Shown: positions 33,629 through 40,251 of the stretch, in pieces | Layout: each line of letters starts with the position of its first letter | Numbering within the stretch: position 1 is the stretch's first letter | DNA from: Paraburkholderia caffeinilytica | GTDB lineage: Bacteria; Pseudomonadota; Gammaproteobacteria; Burkholderiales; Burkholderiaceae | NCBI RefSeq assembly: GCF_003368325.1 | Contig: NZ_CP031467.1 | Span: 1,736,001-1,800,000 of the forward strand | Length of the DNA stretch: 64,000 nt | Direction of reading: 5' to 3' | Notes under the pieces: generated by a model | Database searches by the model: none | Told to the model about the DNA's origin: nothing | What the model saw: the letters and a program-made list of their open reading frames with translations, nothing else | Program-made: the position numbers and the translations under genes

Positions 33629-36600
33629 TTAGGCGGCGAGCACTTCCTTGTTCGCCTTCTTCGCGGCCATCTCGCCCAGTGCGCGCTTGTATTCGGTCGG
33701 GAACACCTTCACGAATTGACGGCGCGACGCATCCCAGTTTTCGAGCAGCGCCTTTGCACGCGGCGAACCCGTGAACTGGAAGTGACGTTCGATGAGACCC
33801 TTGAGCAGGGCTTCATCGGTCGTGCCGCTGTGCCACAAGCCCTTGTCGACCGTGCGTTCCTGTTCGGCCTGTTGCAGAACCGGATCGAGCGCGACCATCG
33901 ACTTGTTGCACTTGCCCGCGAACGTGCCGTCCGGGTCGTACACGTAAGCGATACCGCCCGACATGCCGGCCGCGAAGTTGCGGCCCGTTTCGCCGAGCAC
34001 GATCACCGTGCCGCCCGTCATGTATTCGCAACCGTGGTCGCCCGTGCCTTCGACAACCGCCGTCGCACCGGAGTTACGCACGCAGAAACGCTCGCCGGCC
34101 ACGCCGCGGAAGAACGACTCGCCTTCAATCGCGCCGTACATCACCGTGTTGCCGCAGATGATGTTTTCTTCCGACTTGCCGCGGAAATCGTTCGTAGGAC
34201 GGATGATGATGCGGCCGCCCGACAGGCCCTTGCCGACGTAGTCGTTGCCGTCGCCGACCAGATCCAGCGTGATGCCCTTGGCGAGGAACGCGCCGAAGCT
34301 CTGACCCGCGGTGCCCTTCAACTGGATATGGATCGCGTCGTCGGGCAAGCCGTCGTGGCCATACTTCTTGGCGATCGTTCCGGACAGCATCGCGCCGACC
34401 GTACGGTTCACGTTACGCACCGGCTGGATGAACGAGACGTGCTCGCCCTTGTCGATTGCAGCCTTCGCCTTCTCGATCAGCGTGTGGTCAAGCGCCTTGT
34501 CGAGACCGTGATCCTGCACGTCGACATGCTTGCGCGCCACTTCCGCCGACACCTGCGGCAGATAGAACACGCGCGAGAAGTCGAGACCCTTCGCCTTCCA
34601 GTGCTCGATGCCCTTCTTCATGTCGAGCAGCTCGGCATGGCCGATCAGATCGTCGAACTTGCGGATACCGAGTTGCGCCATGATTTCGCGCGCTTCTTCC
34701 GCAACGAAGAAGAAGAAGTTCACGACGTGTTCCGGCTGGCCCTGGAACTTCGCGCGCAGCACCGGATCTTGCGTCGCGACGCCGACCGGGCAGGTGTTCA
34801 GGTGACACTTGCGCATCATGATGCAGCCTTCGACGACGAGCGGCGCCGTCGCGAAGCCGAATTCGTCCGCGCCGAGCAGCGCGCCGATCACCACGTCGCG
34901 GCCGGTCTTCATCTGACCGTCGGCCTGCACGCGGATACGGCCGCGCAACTGGTTCAGCACCAGCGTCTGCTGCGTTTCGGCCAGACCGAGTTCCCACGGC
35001 GTGCCGGCATGCTTCACGGACGACAGCGGCGATGCGCCCGTACCGCCGTCATGGCCGGCGATCACGACGTGATCGGCCTTCGCCTTGGCGACACCCGCAG
35101 CCACCGTACCCACGCCCGATTCCGACACCAGCTTGACCGACACGCTGGCCGCCGAGTTGGCGTTCTTCAGGTCGTGAATCAGCTGCGCCAGATCTTCGAT
35201 CGAGTAGATGTCGTGGTGCGGCGGCGGCGAGATCAGGCCGACACCCGGCACCGAGTAACGCAGCTTGCCGATGTATTCCGACACCTTGTGGCCCGGCAGC
35301 TGACCGCCTTCGCCCGGCTTAGCACCTTGCGCCATCTTGATCTGGATCTGATCGGCCGAGGCGAGGTATTCCGCCGTCACGCCGAAACGGCCCGACGCCA
35401 CCTGCTTGATCTTCGAGCGCAGCGAATCGCCTTCTTTCAGCGGAATATCGACGATCACTTCGTCGCCGATCACGGACTTCATGGTGTCGCCGTTCTTGAT
35501 CGGAATGCCGCGCAGTTCGTTGCGATAACGGTTCACGTCCTCGCCGCCTTCGCCGGTGTTCGACTTGCCGCCGATGCGGTTCATCGCGACAGCCAGCGTG
35601 GCGTGGGCTTCGGTCGAGATCGAGCCCAGCGACATGGCGCCGGTGGCGAAACGCTTGACGATTTCCTTCGCCGATTCCACTTCGTCGAGCGGGATCGCCT
35701 TGGTCGGATCGAACTTGAATTCGAACAGGCCGCGGAACGTCATGTGGCGCCTGGTCTGGTCATTGATCAGATGCGCGTATTCCTTGTACGTCTGGTACGA
35801 GTTGCTGCGCGCCGAGTGTTGCAGCTTGGCGATCGCATCCGGCGTCCACATATGTTCTTCGCCGCGCACGCGATAGGCGTACTCGCCGCCCGCATCGAGC
35901 ATGGTCGCGAGCACCGGGTTGTCGCCGAACGCATCGCGATGCAGACGGATCGCTTCTTCCGCGACGTCGAACAGGCCGATGCCGCCGACCTTCGACGACG
36001 TGCCCTTGAAGTACTTCGACACCAGGTCTTCAGCAAGGCCGACCGCTTCGAAAATCTGCGCGCCGGTGTACGACATGTAGGTCGAAATGCCCATCTTCGA
36101 CATGACCTTCTGCAGGCCCTTGCCGACTGCCTTGGTGAAGTTGTACACCGCCTTTTCCGCCGACAGGTCGCCCTTCAGACCCGCTGCGAGCTGGCCGAGC
36201 GTTTCCATCGCGAGGTACGGGTGCACGGCTTCCGCGCCGTAGCCCGCGAGCAACGCGAAGTGGTGCGTTTCACGCGCCGAGCCGGTTTCCACGACGAGAC
36301 CCGCGCTCGTGCGCAGACCATGCTGAACGAGGTGCGTGTGGATCGCGGCGGTGGCGAGCAACGCCGGAATCGCGACGTTGTCGCGGTCGGTCTTGCGGTC
36401 CGACACGATCAGCATGTTGTAGCCGGACTTGACCGCATCCACGGCTTCCGCGCACAGCGAGGCCAGACGCGCTTCAATACCTTCCTTGCCCCAGGCCACC
36501 GGATAGCAGATGTTCAGTTCGTACGAGCTGAACTTGCCGCCCGTGTACTGATCGATCGCGCGGATCTTGGCGATGTCCTTGAAGTCGAGCACCGGCTGCG

Positions 36601-38332
36601 ACACTTCGAGACGCATCGGCGGGTTGATGTTGTTCGTGTCCAGCAGGTTCGGCTTCGGACCGACGAACGACACCAGCGACATCACCATGTTTTCACGGAT
36701 CGGGTCGATCGGCGGGTTCGTGACTTGCGCGAACAACTGCTTGAAGTAGTGATAGAGCGTCTTGTTCTTGTTGGACATGACGGCCAGCGGCGAGTCGTTG
36801 CCCATCGAGCCGACGGCCTCTTCACCCGCTTGCGCCATCGGCGCCATCAGGAACTTGAGGTCTTCCTGCGTGTAGCCGAACGCCTGCTGGCGATCCAGCA
36901 AGGCAGCGGCTTCGCGGCGTTCCGTCACGACGTCTTCGGCCTTCGGCTCGATTTCGTCGAGCTTGATCCGGACCGCATCGATCCAGCTCTTGTACGGCTT
37001 GGCGTTCGCGAGGTTGTCCTTCAATTCCTTGTCGTCGATGATGCGGCCGTGTTCCATGTCGATCAGGAACATCTTGCCCGGCTGCAGACGCCACTTCTTG
37101 ACGATCTTCGACTCGGGAATCGGCAGTGTGCCCGCTTCCGACGCCATGATGACGAGGTCGTCGTCCGTGACGATGTAGCGCGCCGGACGCAGACCGTTAC
37201 GGTCGAGCGTCGCGCCGATCTGACGGCCATCTGTGAAGGCGATCGCGGCGGGGCCGTCCCACGGCTCCATCATCGCGGCGTGATATTCGTAGAACGCGCG
37301 GCGGTTGTCGTCCATCAGCGTGTGCTGTTCCCACGCTTCCGGGATCATCATCATCACGGCGTGGACGAGCGGGTAGCCGGCCATCACCAGCAGTTCGAGA
37401 CAGTTGTCGAACGATGCCGTGTCGGATTGGCCCGGGTAGATCAGCGGCCACAGCTTCGGCAGATCGTCGCCGAGCACGTGCGACGCGATCGCGCCGGTAC
37501 GGGCGTTCAGCCAGTTGACGTTGCCTTTCACCGTGTTGATCTCGCCGTTGTGGGCGATCATGCGGTACGGGTGAGCCAGTTCCCAAGCCGGGAACGTGTT
37601 GGTCGAGAAGCGCTGGTGCACCAGCGCCAGCGCCGACACCGTGCGCTCGTCCTGCAGGTCGCGGTAGTACACCCCAACCTGGCCGGCCAGCAGCAGGCCC
37701 TTGTAGACGACCGTGCGCGCCGAGCACGACGGCACGAAGTATTCCTTGCCGTGCTGGAGCTTGAGCGCCTGGATGCGGTGGCTCGCGGTCTTGCGGATCA
37801 CGTACAGCTTCCGCTCGAGCGCGTCCGTCACCATGATGTCCTTGCCGCGGCCGATGAAAATCTGGCGGATCAGCGGCTCGCTCGCCTTGACGGTAGGCGA
37901 AATCGGCATGGTGTGGTCGACCGGCACGTCGCGCCAGCCCAGCACGACCTGGCCTTCGGCCTTCACCGTGCGCTCCAGTTCCTGTTCGCAGGCGAGACGC
38001 GACGCGTGCTCCTTCGGCAGGAACACCATGCCGACGCCATATTCGCCGTGCGGCGGCAACACCACGCCCTGCCTGGCCATTTCCTCACGATAGAAACCGT
38101 CCGGGATCTGGATCAGGATGCCCGCGCCGTCGCCCATCAGCGGATCGGCGCCGACGGCGCCCCGGTGGTCGAGGTTTTCGAGAATCTTCAGGCCTTGCTC
38201 GATGATCTCGTGGCTTTTCTTGCCCTTGATATGAGCAACGAAGCCGACGCCGCAGGCGTCATGTTCATTTTGCGGGTCGTACAGACCTTGCGCGGCGGGA
38301 ACCGGGTGAGTCGGTTGCTGGTGGTCGTTCAT
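33629..38332 (-). CDS. gltB: Glutamate synthase large subunit GltB
   Basis: A 1567-residue enzyme making two glutamates from glutamine and 2-oxoglutarate. A 26-residue propeptide precedes Cys27 ([11 protein letters not shown]), the N-terminal nucleophile of the class II amidotransferase domain (to about 430). A central domain follows, then the FMN-binding synthase domain (about 830-1210; [39 protein letters not shown]) with the [3Fe-4S] Cys pattern [15 protein letters not shown], and the C-terminal beta-helix with G-rich repeats ([18 protein letters not shown]). It is upstream of gltD in a two-gene operon. Confidence 0.98.
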
Positions 38333-38572
38333 GGGGACACCGTCTGTGAGGGGCCGGACAGGCCGTTAAAACCGTTTTTCTATTGCCGCAGTGCGCACCG
38401 CAACCGCGTCGGCGACTCGGTACGCTCGAATGCTGCGCGTGCCAAAAAGTGCCGGAATTCGGAATATACGCGACGAATCAATGGAATAGCAAATAAAACG
38501 TGATGGTCGATCCCCAATTATCAAATTGGTGCATTGCGGCTATTTTTTATTGGTTCCACATCAAAAAGGTGC
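38333..38572 (-). promoter_or_regulatory. gltB upstream region with GGTGCA half-sites
   Basis: The gap between gltB and the RAYT-like gene is AT-rich at 38480-38572. It holds two GGTGCA half-sites (about 38529-38534 and 38567-38573), the half-site form of NtrC operators, but no full palindrome. No clean sigma-70 or sigma-54 promoter was identified. The gltB promoter must lie here because a terminator precedes it. Confidence 0.3.
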
Positions 38573-38601
38573 AAAAGAAAACGGCATGCGAAGATGCCGT
38601 T
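38573..38601 (-). terminator. Intrinsic terminator after the RAYT-like gene
   Basis: On the minus strand an 8-bp stem (AACGGCAT/ATGCCGTT, 38601-38594 with 38587-38580, loop 6) is followed by TTTTCTTTT. It separates the RAYT-like transcript from gltB. Confidence 0.8.
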
Positions 38602-38630: not shown

Positions 38631-39338
38631 TTATTGCGTTTGCGGCGTTTCGCGCACCTTGCGTGGCCGGCCGCGCGGCAGCGGTGAAACGCGCCGGTTG
38701 GCGGCCCGTGCCGCCCATTCACGGTAGGTGTCGCTGCCCAAAACCCAGCCTTTCAAGGTGGCCTGCTGAAGCTGGCTGGCTTCGCGTTCGTCGAGCGGCT
38801 GCTCGCACAACTCCCGGTAAGCGCGCTGTCGCTCGAACGGCGTGTTGCCGAGCGACCAGTACAACGGGTGATCGGTAATCAGGCTATCGAGCGTGAGGCC
38901 GATGTGATGACGGTAGCTCGACCAGCGGTAGTCTTCCGGCACGCTCACGAGCCCGGCGCGCACCGGACACATCTCGACGACCCGGCTCGCGAGCAGGAAG
39001 TAACGCTCGCCTTCGATCACCGTGGCACGGTAGCGCCCCTCCCACAAGGTGCCGCGGCGTGCGTAACGCCGGTTGAAGTGCGCAACGTAGCGGCGTCCCA
39101 CCGCCTGCATCGCCTTCGGCAGGCTCGACTCTTCAGTCGGCGTGACGAGCAGTTGCACAGCGCCGGGCATCAGCGCATACGCGTGGATGGACAAGTGATG
39201 GTCGCGTGAAGCCGCTTTCAGACAGTCGATGAAAAGCTCGTAGTCCTGGTCGTCAACGAATGCGGGCTGCTGATCGAGTCCGCGGAGGATGACGTGCTGC
39301 GGCTGGTCAGGGACATAGAGACGTGCAAGCCGTGCCAT
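38631..39338 (-). CDS. REP-associated tyrosine transposase (RAYT)-like protein, catalytically degenerate
   Basis: A 235-residue member of the Y1 (IS200-like) transposase superfamily: PQHVILRGLDQQPAFVDDQD, ALMPGAVQLLVTP, ARRGTLWEGRYRATVI, and MCPVRAGLVSVPEDYRWSSY are the standard RAYT blocks. The HUH metal-binding motif (normally NHVHLL) reads GAVQLL, losing both His, and the catalytic Tyr of YxxxNPVRA is replaced (RVVEMCPVRA). The fold seems kept without DNA-cleavage residues, pointing to a domesticated or regulatory DNA-binding role. It lies upstream of gltB, separated by a terminator. Confidence 0.88.
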   Translation of the reverse strand: MARLARLYVPDQPQHVILRGLDQQPAFVDDQDYELFIDCLKAASRDHHLSIHAYALMPGAVQLLVTPTEESSLPKAMQAVGRRYVAHFNRRYARRGTLWEGRYRATVIEGERYFLLASRVVEMCPVRAGLVSVPEDYRWSSYRHHIGLTLDSLITDHPLYWSLGNTPFERQRAYRELCEQPLDEREASQLQQATLKGWVLGSDTYREWAARAANRRVSPLPRGRPRKVRETPQTQ

Positions 39339-39525
39339 GCTGGAGTATCCAATAGTCGCGTTGGTACATACCCGAAGGTCCGAAGAACCGCGTACGCCCA
39401 GGGTTCGGCGCGGCGCGGCTAAGCCAGAAACCGCGCGGAGCCTAGGGAGAAAGCTCTAACCGCCGCGTATGGTTTGTTTCAAACGTTGTAGTCATAATGA
39501 GCGGGCCTTTTTTGGAGGAGCACAT

Positions 39526-40251
39526 ATGAAATTAAAACAGGCCGTAACGGGGATCGCGGCGCTTGCCTGCATGACAACGGCAGCACACGCGCAATCGGCC
39601 GGTAGCTTTTTCGTCACGTCAGGCTGGTTCCATCTTGCGCCTCAATCGAGCAGCGAACCGTTGAAGGTGACAAGCATCGGCGGCAGCCCGACCAACATCA
39701 CCGAAGCCAACACCGGCGCAACACTCAGTTCAGCCGACACTCTCGGCTTCACTGCTGGCTACTTCGTCACAGATCACATCGCAGCCGAGTTCGTGATTGG
39801 CGTCCCGCCTTCGTTCGACCTGGAAGGCTCGGGCAGCCTCGCCCAATTCGGCAAGCTGGGTCAGGCAAAACAATGGAGCCCGACTCTGCTGTTCAAGTAC
39901 TACTTCAATGCTCCGACTGCCACTTTCCGCCCGTATCTCGGTCTCGGTGTGAGCCGCATCTGGTTCACGGACGAAAAGATCACCAACGGCGTATTCGAGG
40001 CAAACGTTCTGCATGGTCCGACCAGTGTCTCCACGGATAGTTCGTGGGAGCCGGTATTTAATGCGGGTTTCACCTATGCGTTCAACCAGCACTGGTTCGC
40101 GGGCGTCTCGGTTTCGTACCTGCCGCTCAGCACGACCGCCAAGCTGAACACCGCCGCAAGCACCCCGGTCGGCACGCTGAATGTGCAATCGCAAACCAAG
40201 ATCAAGCTGAACCCGATCGTTACCTACGTCAACATCGGTTACCGTTTCTAA
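39526..40251 (+). CDS. OmpW-family outer-membrane protein
   Basis: A 241-residue protein with a Sec signal peptide (MKLKQAVTGIAALACMTTAA, cleavage after AHA) and an 8-stranded barrel pattern ending in Phe (VTYVNIGYRF), as outer-membrane proteins do. OmpW stretches: LGFTAGYFVTDHIAAEFVIG, SPTLLFKYYFN and FRPYLGLGVSRIWFTDE. OmpW porins pass small hydrophobic compounds and respond to stress. The start has a strong GGAGGAG five bases upstream. It is monocistronic, with a terminator after it. Confidence 0.93.
   Translation: MKLKQAVTGIAALACMTTAAHAQSAGSFFVTSGWFHLAPQSSSEPLKVTSIGGSPTNITEANTGATLSSADTLGFTAGYFVTDHIAAEFVIGVPPSFDLEGSGSLAQFGKLGQAKQWSPTLLFKYYFNAPTATFRPYLGLGVSRIWFTDEKITNGVFEANVLHGPTSVSTDSSWEPVFNAGFTYAFNQHWFAGVSVSYLPLSTTAKLNTAASTPVGTLNVQSQTKIKLNPIVTYVNIGYRF

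Follow-up and report, generated by a model that had tools for sequence, protein, structure and literature searches.

The gene at the centre of this analysis appears to have passed from mobility to regulation: we propose, with a probability of roughly 0.7, that a transposase of the TIRYT branch of the RAYTs has turned into a DNA-binding regulator of gltB, with the terminal repeats of the ancestral element as its operator. The window, i.e., the whole stretch of 64,000 nucleotides of Paraburkholderia caffeinilytica DNA that was analysed, presents the following features that bear on this proposal.

38,631–39,338, minus strand: gene for a RAYT/TIRYT-derived protein of 235 residues, catalytically dead by sequence
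39,153–39,164, minus strand: former HUH motif (codons 59–62), GAVQ instead of NHxH
38,955–38,984, minus strand: former tyrosine block (codons 119–128), RVVEMCPVRA instead of RYIELNPVRA
38,658–38,678, minus strand: AT-hook-like tail PRGRPRK (codons 221–227), marked by conservation of xGRP
38,580–38,601, minus strand: hairpin followed by T-rich DNA just 3' of the gene, terminator-like by eye, from an alignment of many loci
38,548–38,563, minus strand: box 1 (TGATGTGGAACCAATA), proposed operator half and diverged terminal repeat, from alignment conservation
38,502–38,521, minus strand: box 2 (ATAATTGGGGATCGACCATC), inverted and diverged, the putative second half of the operator, from alignment conservation
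38,463–38,492, minus strand: putative gltB promoter, sigma-70-like, TTGCTA-18-TATATT, from alignment conservation and a promoter scan
33,629–38,332, minus strand: gltB, glutamate synthase large subunit, the proposed target

A terminator scan called no terminator at the hairpin. The promoter scan found one promoter-like site against 0.5 expected by chance, and in the window box 2 lies 9 bp from this sole site.

The protein has the Y1_Tnp fold of the Y1/RAYT transposases, the W[EQ] and SS motifs (TLWEG and WSSY) and a C-terminal extension. In these features, and in a length near 238 residues, it resembles subclass 2.1 of TnpAY1, which passages of Quentin et al. (2018, PMC6006769) describe as being without REP association and common in beta-proteobacteria, and which, by the citation given in that paper, corresponds to group 1 of Bertels et al. 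The catalytic positions tell a different story: A60 and Q62 take the place of the HUH histidines; V120 and C124 abolish the catalytic tyrosine and the Y---NP signature; the NCBIfam model REP_Tyr_transpos gives 54.8 of the 80 bits of its cut-off; and no other HxH was found in the protein. Thus, the initial annotation correctly recognized a RAYT-like protein without both HUH histidines and the catalytic tyrosine, and the alternative HUH pair nearby that it had held could undo its reading did not turn up. As the residues needed for catalysis are gone, the protein is better regarded as a descendant of subclass 2.1, for which the name transposase is unsuitable. The REP-like hairpins that the annotation proposed to search for are unlikely partners, as the motifs place the protein in the REP-free branch of the RAYTs (subclass 2.1/TIRYT), where terminal repeats are the likelier partner. 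The E. coli TnpAREP (4er8), as portrayed in parts of PMC8266576, differs in cleaving REP hairpins, in having both histidines and the tyrosine and in being shorter. The survey of Quentin et al. (PMC6006769) calls the members catalytic, sets aside proteins without HuH or Y as probably non-functional and, taking sequences without the core motifs as non-functional, retains 722 of 924; catalytically dead members were excluded in this way, whereas those described here are conserved, vertically inherited and tied to gltB.

Codon comparisons confirm strong purifying selection on the gene despite the lost catalytic residues. Across 80 named loci (the best 80 of 334, from Paraburkholderia, Trinickia, Caballeronia and close kin), median dN/dS, from Nei–Gojobori pairs against the window, is 0.027 for the gene (80 loci), 0.060 for GltB (79), 0.071 for Dgt (70) and 0.160 for the far faster-evolving OmpW-like protein (80); the gap to GltB comes in part from the lower dS of GltB (0.31 vs 0.79), dN alone being 0.0203 for the gene against 0.0176 for GltB. 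The OmpW-like gene (39,469–40,251) is divergent and has a common upstream region with the dead gene in the named loci. Internal stops occur in none of the 80 copies of the gene and in eight loci of the OmpW alignment. A relative is present in 381 of the 398 family genomes searched, far beyond the single strain to which the annotation had considered it might be confined. Its view of a domesticated protein that lost catalysis under strong selection is well supported by the dN/dS comparison it had called for and by linkage to gltB in 79 of the 80 loci; of the frameshifts and stops that it had said could tell against it, no stop occurs in the named loci, but in g13, a genus with small genomes, the gene is broken in five genomes. 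These broken copies, together with dispersed boxes in some catalytically intact genomes (62 matches in G404), would fit a selfish element kept through linkage to a needed gene, with catalytic loss as ordinary decay; such an account is very unlikely in the face of a dN/dS of 0.027, the lack of any stop in 80/80 loci with dead sites and the presence of a relative in 381/398 family genomes. That the gene is an annotation artefact or pseudogene is scarcely credible, given the open frame, the selection and a confident structural model, with nothing found in favour of that idea.

The first histidine and the catalytic tyrosine are absent from all 80 named relatives (the best 80 of 334), with positions 60/62/120/124 reading A/Q/V/C in 52, A/Q/V/S in 11, A/Q/V/A in 11, S/Q/V/S in five and A/H/V/A in one. 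Within the same family, NHxH and the tyrosine are retained in genera g11, g3, g24, g13 and g5 and not in g8, g10, g12, g14, g16, g17, g18, g25, g7, g21, g22 and g23; some of the latter still have the second histidine, and in G023 (g23) the gene is split. All three catalytic residues are found in 103 of 161 gltB-linked loci and not in the other 58. The distribution of intact and dead labels requires 24 changes when mapped onto a tree of the GltB N-terminus, and 18 when the tree is that of the protein itself, built without the catalytic columns. Well-supported branches force at least nine in both, and six if only proteins with none of the three residues are counted as the group; the trees were quickly built, and we read the changes as losses, a direction not given by the counts alone. 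When 40 non-redundant dead proteins are compared with 103 intact gltB-linked ones (17 partly dead proteins omitted), the largest gains in entropy from intact to dead fall on both histidines (0 to 2.38 and 0 to 2.13), the tyrosine (0 to 2.35), the metal-ligand asparagine (0.27 to 3.01) and R127 (0.08 to 2.48), with neighbouring positions such as 59 and 113 also looser. Invariant in the dead set are R3, R6, W99, R102, S141, W161, T166–F168, R170, G223 and R224, and the xGRP tail is kept in 110/112 dead and 101/103 intact gltB-linked proteins. It is thus mainly the active site that was released, the basic tail and the larger part of the body being held; by these comparisons, the active site has been freed repeatedly at the gltB locus, with little change in the rest of the protein. 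A search for known DNA-binding domains gave no strong match: the Pfam AT_hook model matches only 3 of 75 members, weakly (best E 0.026), the RGRP core in the basic tail being kept.

The association with gltB is of long standing. This gene lies directly downstream on the same strand in 79 of the 80 named loci, the contig ending there in the remaining one, and in 55/57 and 69/70 fetched loci of families f8 and f49, respectively (124/127 in total); two of the three exceptions fall at contig ends, and in the third, G452, the genes are 3.7 kb apart. The link is seen also in loci of f3, f10 and f50; gltB was not found in the fetched flanks of 27 class-level relatives outside the order. As intact and dead forms occupy the same place, the tie to gltB is older than the catalytic losses. 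Hence, the link to gltB proposed from the window alone stands (79/80, 124/127), but it is common to catalytically intact relatives and so predates the loss of catalysis.

In many genera the spacer between the gene and gltB contains two copies of a box, about CTGTCCC(C/T)AATTA and CTGACCC(C/T)AATTA, and this C-rich form, when reversed, fits GGGGWSAS, given as the terminal-repeat motif of the TIRYTs in the relevant part of Di Nocera et al. (2013, PMC3733652). Scoring each family with a matrix trained on the other, with the cut at the 99th centile of shuffles, we found a box at gltB in 38/38 intact and 16/17 not-intact regions of f8 and in 49/49 and 19/20 of f49, and none in 250 bp of the gene's own sequence; a pooled matrix with a stricter cut found one in 103/103 intact and 48/57 not-intact regions. 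Of 85 two-box regions, 79 have a distance of 48, 49 or 50 bp between the last two boxes, and in 80 these two share an orientation. Among the 27 unlinked class-level relatives, the matrix places boxes upstream in 16, downstream in 12 and on both sides in nine, where shuffles give 0.2 and 0.1 loci, and never inside the gene. At the level of sequence, these matches establish the identity of the boxes of other lineages with the terminal repeats of mobile relatives; boxes upstream of gltB that match terminal repeats are new in this analysis. The flanking of related genes by GGGGWSAS boxes (on both sides in 9/27) is a likeness to the TIRYT/TIRtron as described in sections of PMC3733652; unlike it, the window has lost the gene-upstream box and has the two gltB-side boxes only in diverged form. 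Box matches are also dispersed in certain genomes, with 62 in the catalytically intact G404, many as inverted pairs 33–47 bp apart, 18 each in G687 and G716, nine in G825 and 0 to 2 in the other 16 of 20 genomes; those in the four named, all catalytically intact, could possibly be small mobile elements of this protein.

Genomes in which the gene and gltB have come apart are informative as to what the boxes accompany. The gene does not adjoin gltB in 13 genomes (G006, G021, G022, G041, G452, G609, G056, G066, G076, G086, G042, G057 and G667), representing only about four rearrangements (g7; g21 with g22; G452; g134), and all 13 have a box at gltB, with two boxes 48–50 bp apart in 10. In G006 and G609 the gene is still beside dgt and aroB, while gltB lies at a distance of about 13 kb in the former and 730 kb in the latter; in the separated g21/g22 genomes it is absent from the fetched upstream stretch, its presence elsewhere coming from the family-wide search. 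G452 and G021 have box-like sites beside the gene itself; none was seen there in G006, G022, G041 and G609. By contrast, no box was found in 22 genomes that have gltB but give no match to the gene, of which 20 are from other families, with gltB 38–77% identical to that of the window, nor at gltB in six genomes with only an unlinked relative. Conserved sites at the gltB promoter thus accompany the protein even where it is unlinked (13/13 vs 0/22), in the window by alignment only. Of the 17 family genomes without the gene, 15 are without gltB too; G001 has gltB without boxes, and G381, a 60% complete genome, has one weak box. As for the broken copies of g13, in G344, G304 and G264 (L423, L424 and L425) both the gene and gltB are broken, AroB and a GltD-like gene being whole; in G269 and G094 gltB is intact beside a broken gene, with the box absent in the former and present in the latter.

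The last two genomes lend something to the idea that the boxes are the operator or promoter element of another regulator, with the protein kept by linkage and doing something else, e.g., binding single-stranded DNA at replication forks. The boxes, however, match the ends flanking the same protein family elsewhere, are absent where the gene is absent (0/22) and persist where it is unlinked (13/13), and we consider this explanation unlikely.

In the window's own clade, alignment gives the diverged boxes as TGATRTGGMACCAATA and, inverted, its partner ATAATTGGGG. A pattern search recovers box 1 in 80 of 86 loci, with the best second arm 43 bp on in 70 of those 80; the arms match on average at 9.2 of 15 positions against 7.7 by chance, and their covariation is weak (p 0.0145, with kinship among loci ignored). 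The pair is nearly perfect in single members such as L063 (15 of 15), whereas the window's own arms match at about 7 of 15 by hand, which does not exceed the 7.7 expected on average by chance. With the matrix, no box is found in the window or its genome (L368), nor in L002, the nearest row. As the arms match poorly and the matrix is blank, the presumed identity of the window's two diverged boxes with terminal repeats rests on alignment with relatives. Box 1 is the only exact or 1-mismatch site in its genome. No TIRtron-type box was found in the 250 bp upstream of the gene in 79 loci of the Paraburkholderia group, nor by the matrix in the window's own genome.

Returning to the proposed regulator, we envisage the following course of events. 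The ancestor would have been a transposase from the TIRYT branch of the RAYTs, and the element's terminal repeats would have survived ahead of the gltB promoter, in the form of two boxes, to become an operator. Acting in trans on these former ends, the protein would probably hold both boxes as a dimer (Y1 transposases act as dimers, according to parts of PMC6006769), at a distance mostly of 48–50 bp, or of 43 bp and inverted in the window clade, and its RGRP tail may act on the AATT part of the box. Catalysis, not being needed for regulation, would have been lost repeatedly, including in the clade of Paraburkholderia, Trinickia and Caballeronia. The non-catalytic DNA-binding role suggested at the outset gains from the purifying selection and the candidate sites; that the protein binds DNA, bridges the boxes as a dimer and regulates gltB is what we infer from the sequences. 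Activation of gltB is favoured over repression, if only by a modest lean, since the boxes lie at about −55 and −100 relative to the presumed start, positions that are typical of activator sites.

Solved relatives bind single-stranded hairpins, as parts of PMC8266576 relate, and the window clade has a hairpin 3' of the gene; one might hence consider that the protein is no classical transcription factor and acts on RNA or single-stranded DNA, e.g., on a hairpin formed by the spacer or by the gltB leader. We regard this as distinctly improbable, as the boxes are mostly direct repeats upstream of the promoter (80/85 in the same orientation) rather than transcript hairpins and no Rfam family was found at its threshold.

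Beyond this locus, the comparisons make it, on balance, rather probable that a family of HUH (Y1) transposase-derived transcription factors exists, with terminal repeats as the operator of a core metabolic gene, a tie to gltB in several Burkholderiales families that predates catalytic loss and members that lost catalysis many times, independently, at that one locus. The TldR proteins, TnpB-derived, RNA-guided transcription factors (PMC13418256), are similar in that an IS200/IS605-type protein has been recast as a bacterial regulator. Within the collection of papers searched, we found no report tying a RAYT to gltB. TldR proteins come from TnpB and not TnpA, are RNA-guided and are not known to have terminal repeats as operator. 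If the regulator proposed here is real, a single-strand transposase and its ends would jointly have become the regulator and operator of a central nitrogen gene. The repeated loss of catalysis at one locus lets one ask what non-cutting proteins do, and may help explain the persistence of some RAYTs as single vertical copies; the label 'transposase' in Burkholderiales masks a gene whose product evolves at roughly the slow pace of glutamate synthase.

Some further observations concern the gltB region and the genome at large. In the Paraburkholderia alignment, a AGACGGTGTCCCC stretch ends at the gltB start codon (38,333–38,345), and might be a chance fit to GGGGWSAS, a third box or part of the ribosome site. 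Opposite gltB, the plus strand has an open frame of 1595 codons (33,716–38,503), which we take to be no gene but a mirror of gltB due to its high GC content. A second dead relative of 242 residues, 62% identical and with DAIQ and QVID, is encoded in the same genome (contig C1; L166, 5428–6156), far from gltB, where an LRR-like gene lies on one side and a larger reading frame on the other; a simple pattern found no box there. By a hand count from the match listing, 23 of 60 same-genus genomes have two matches.
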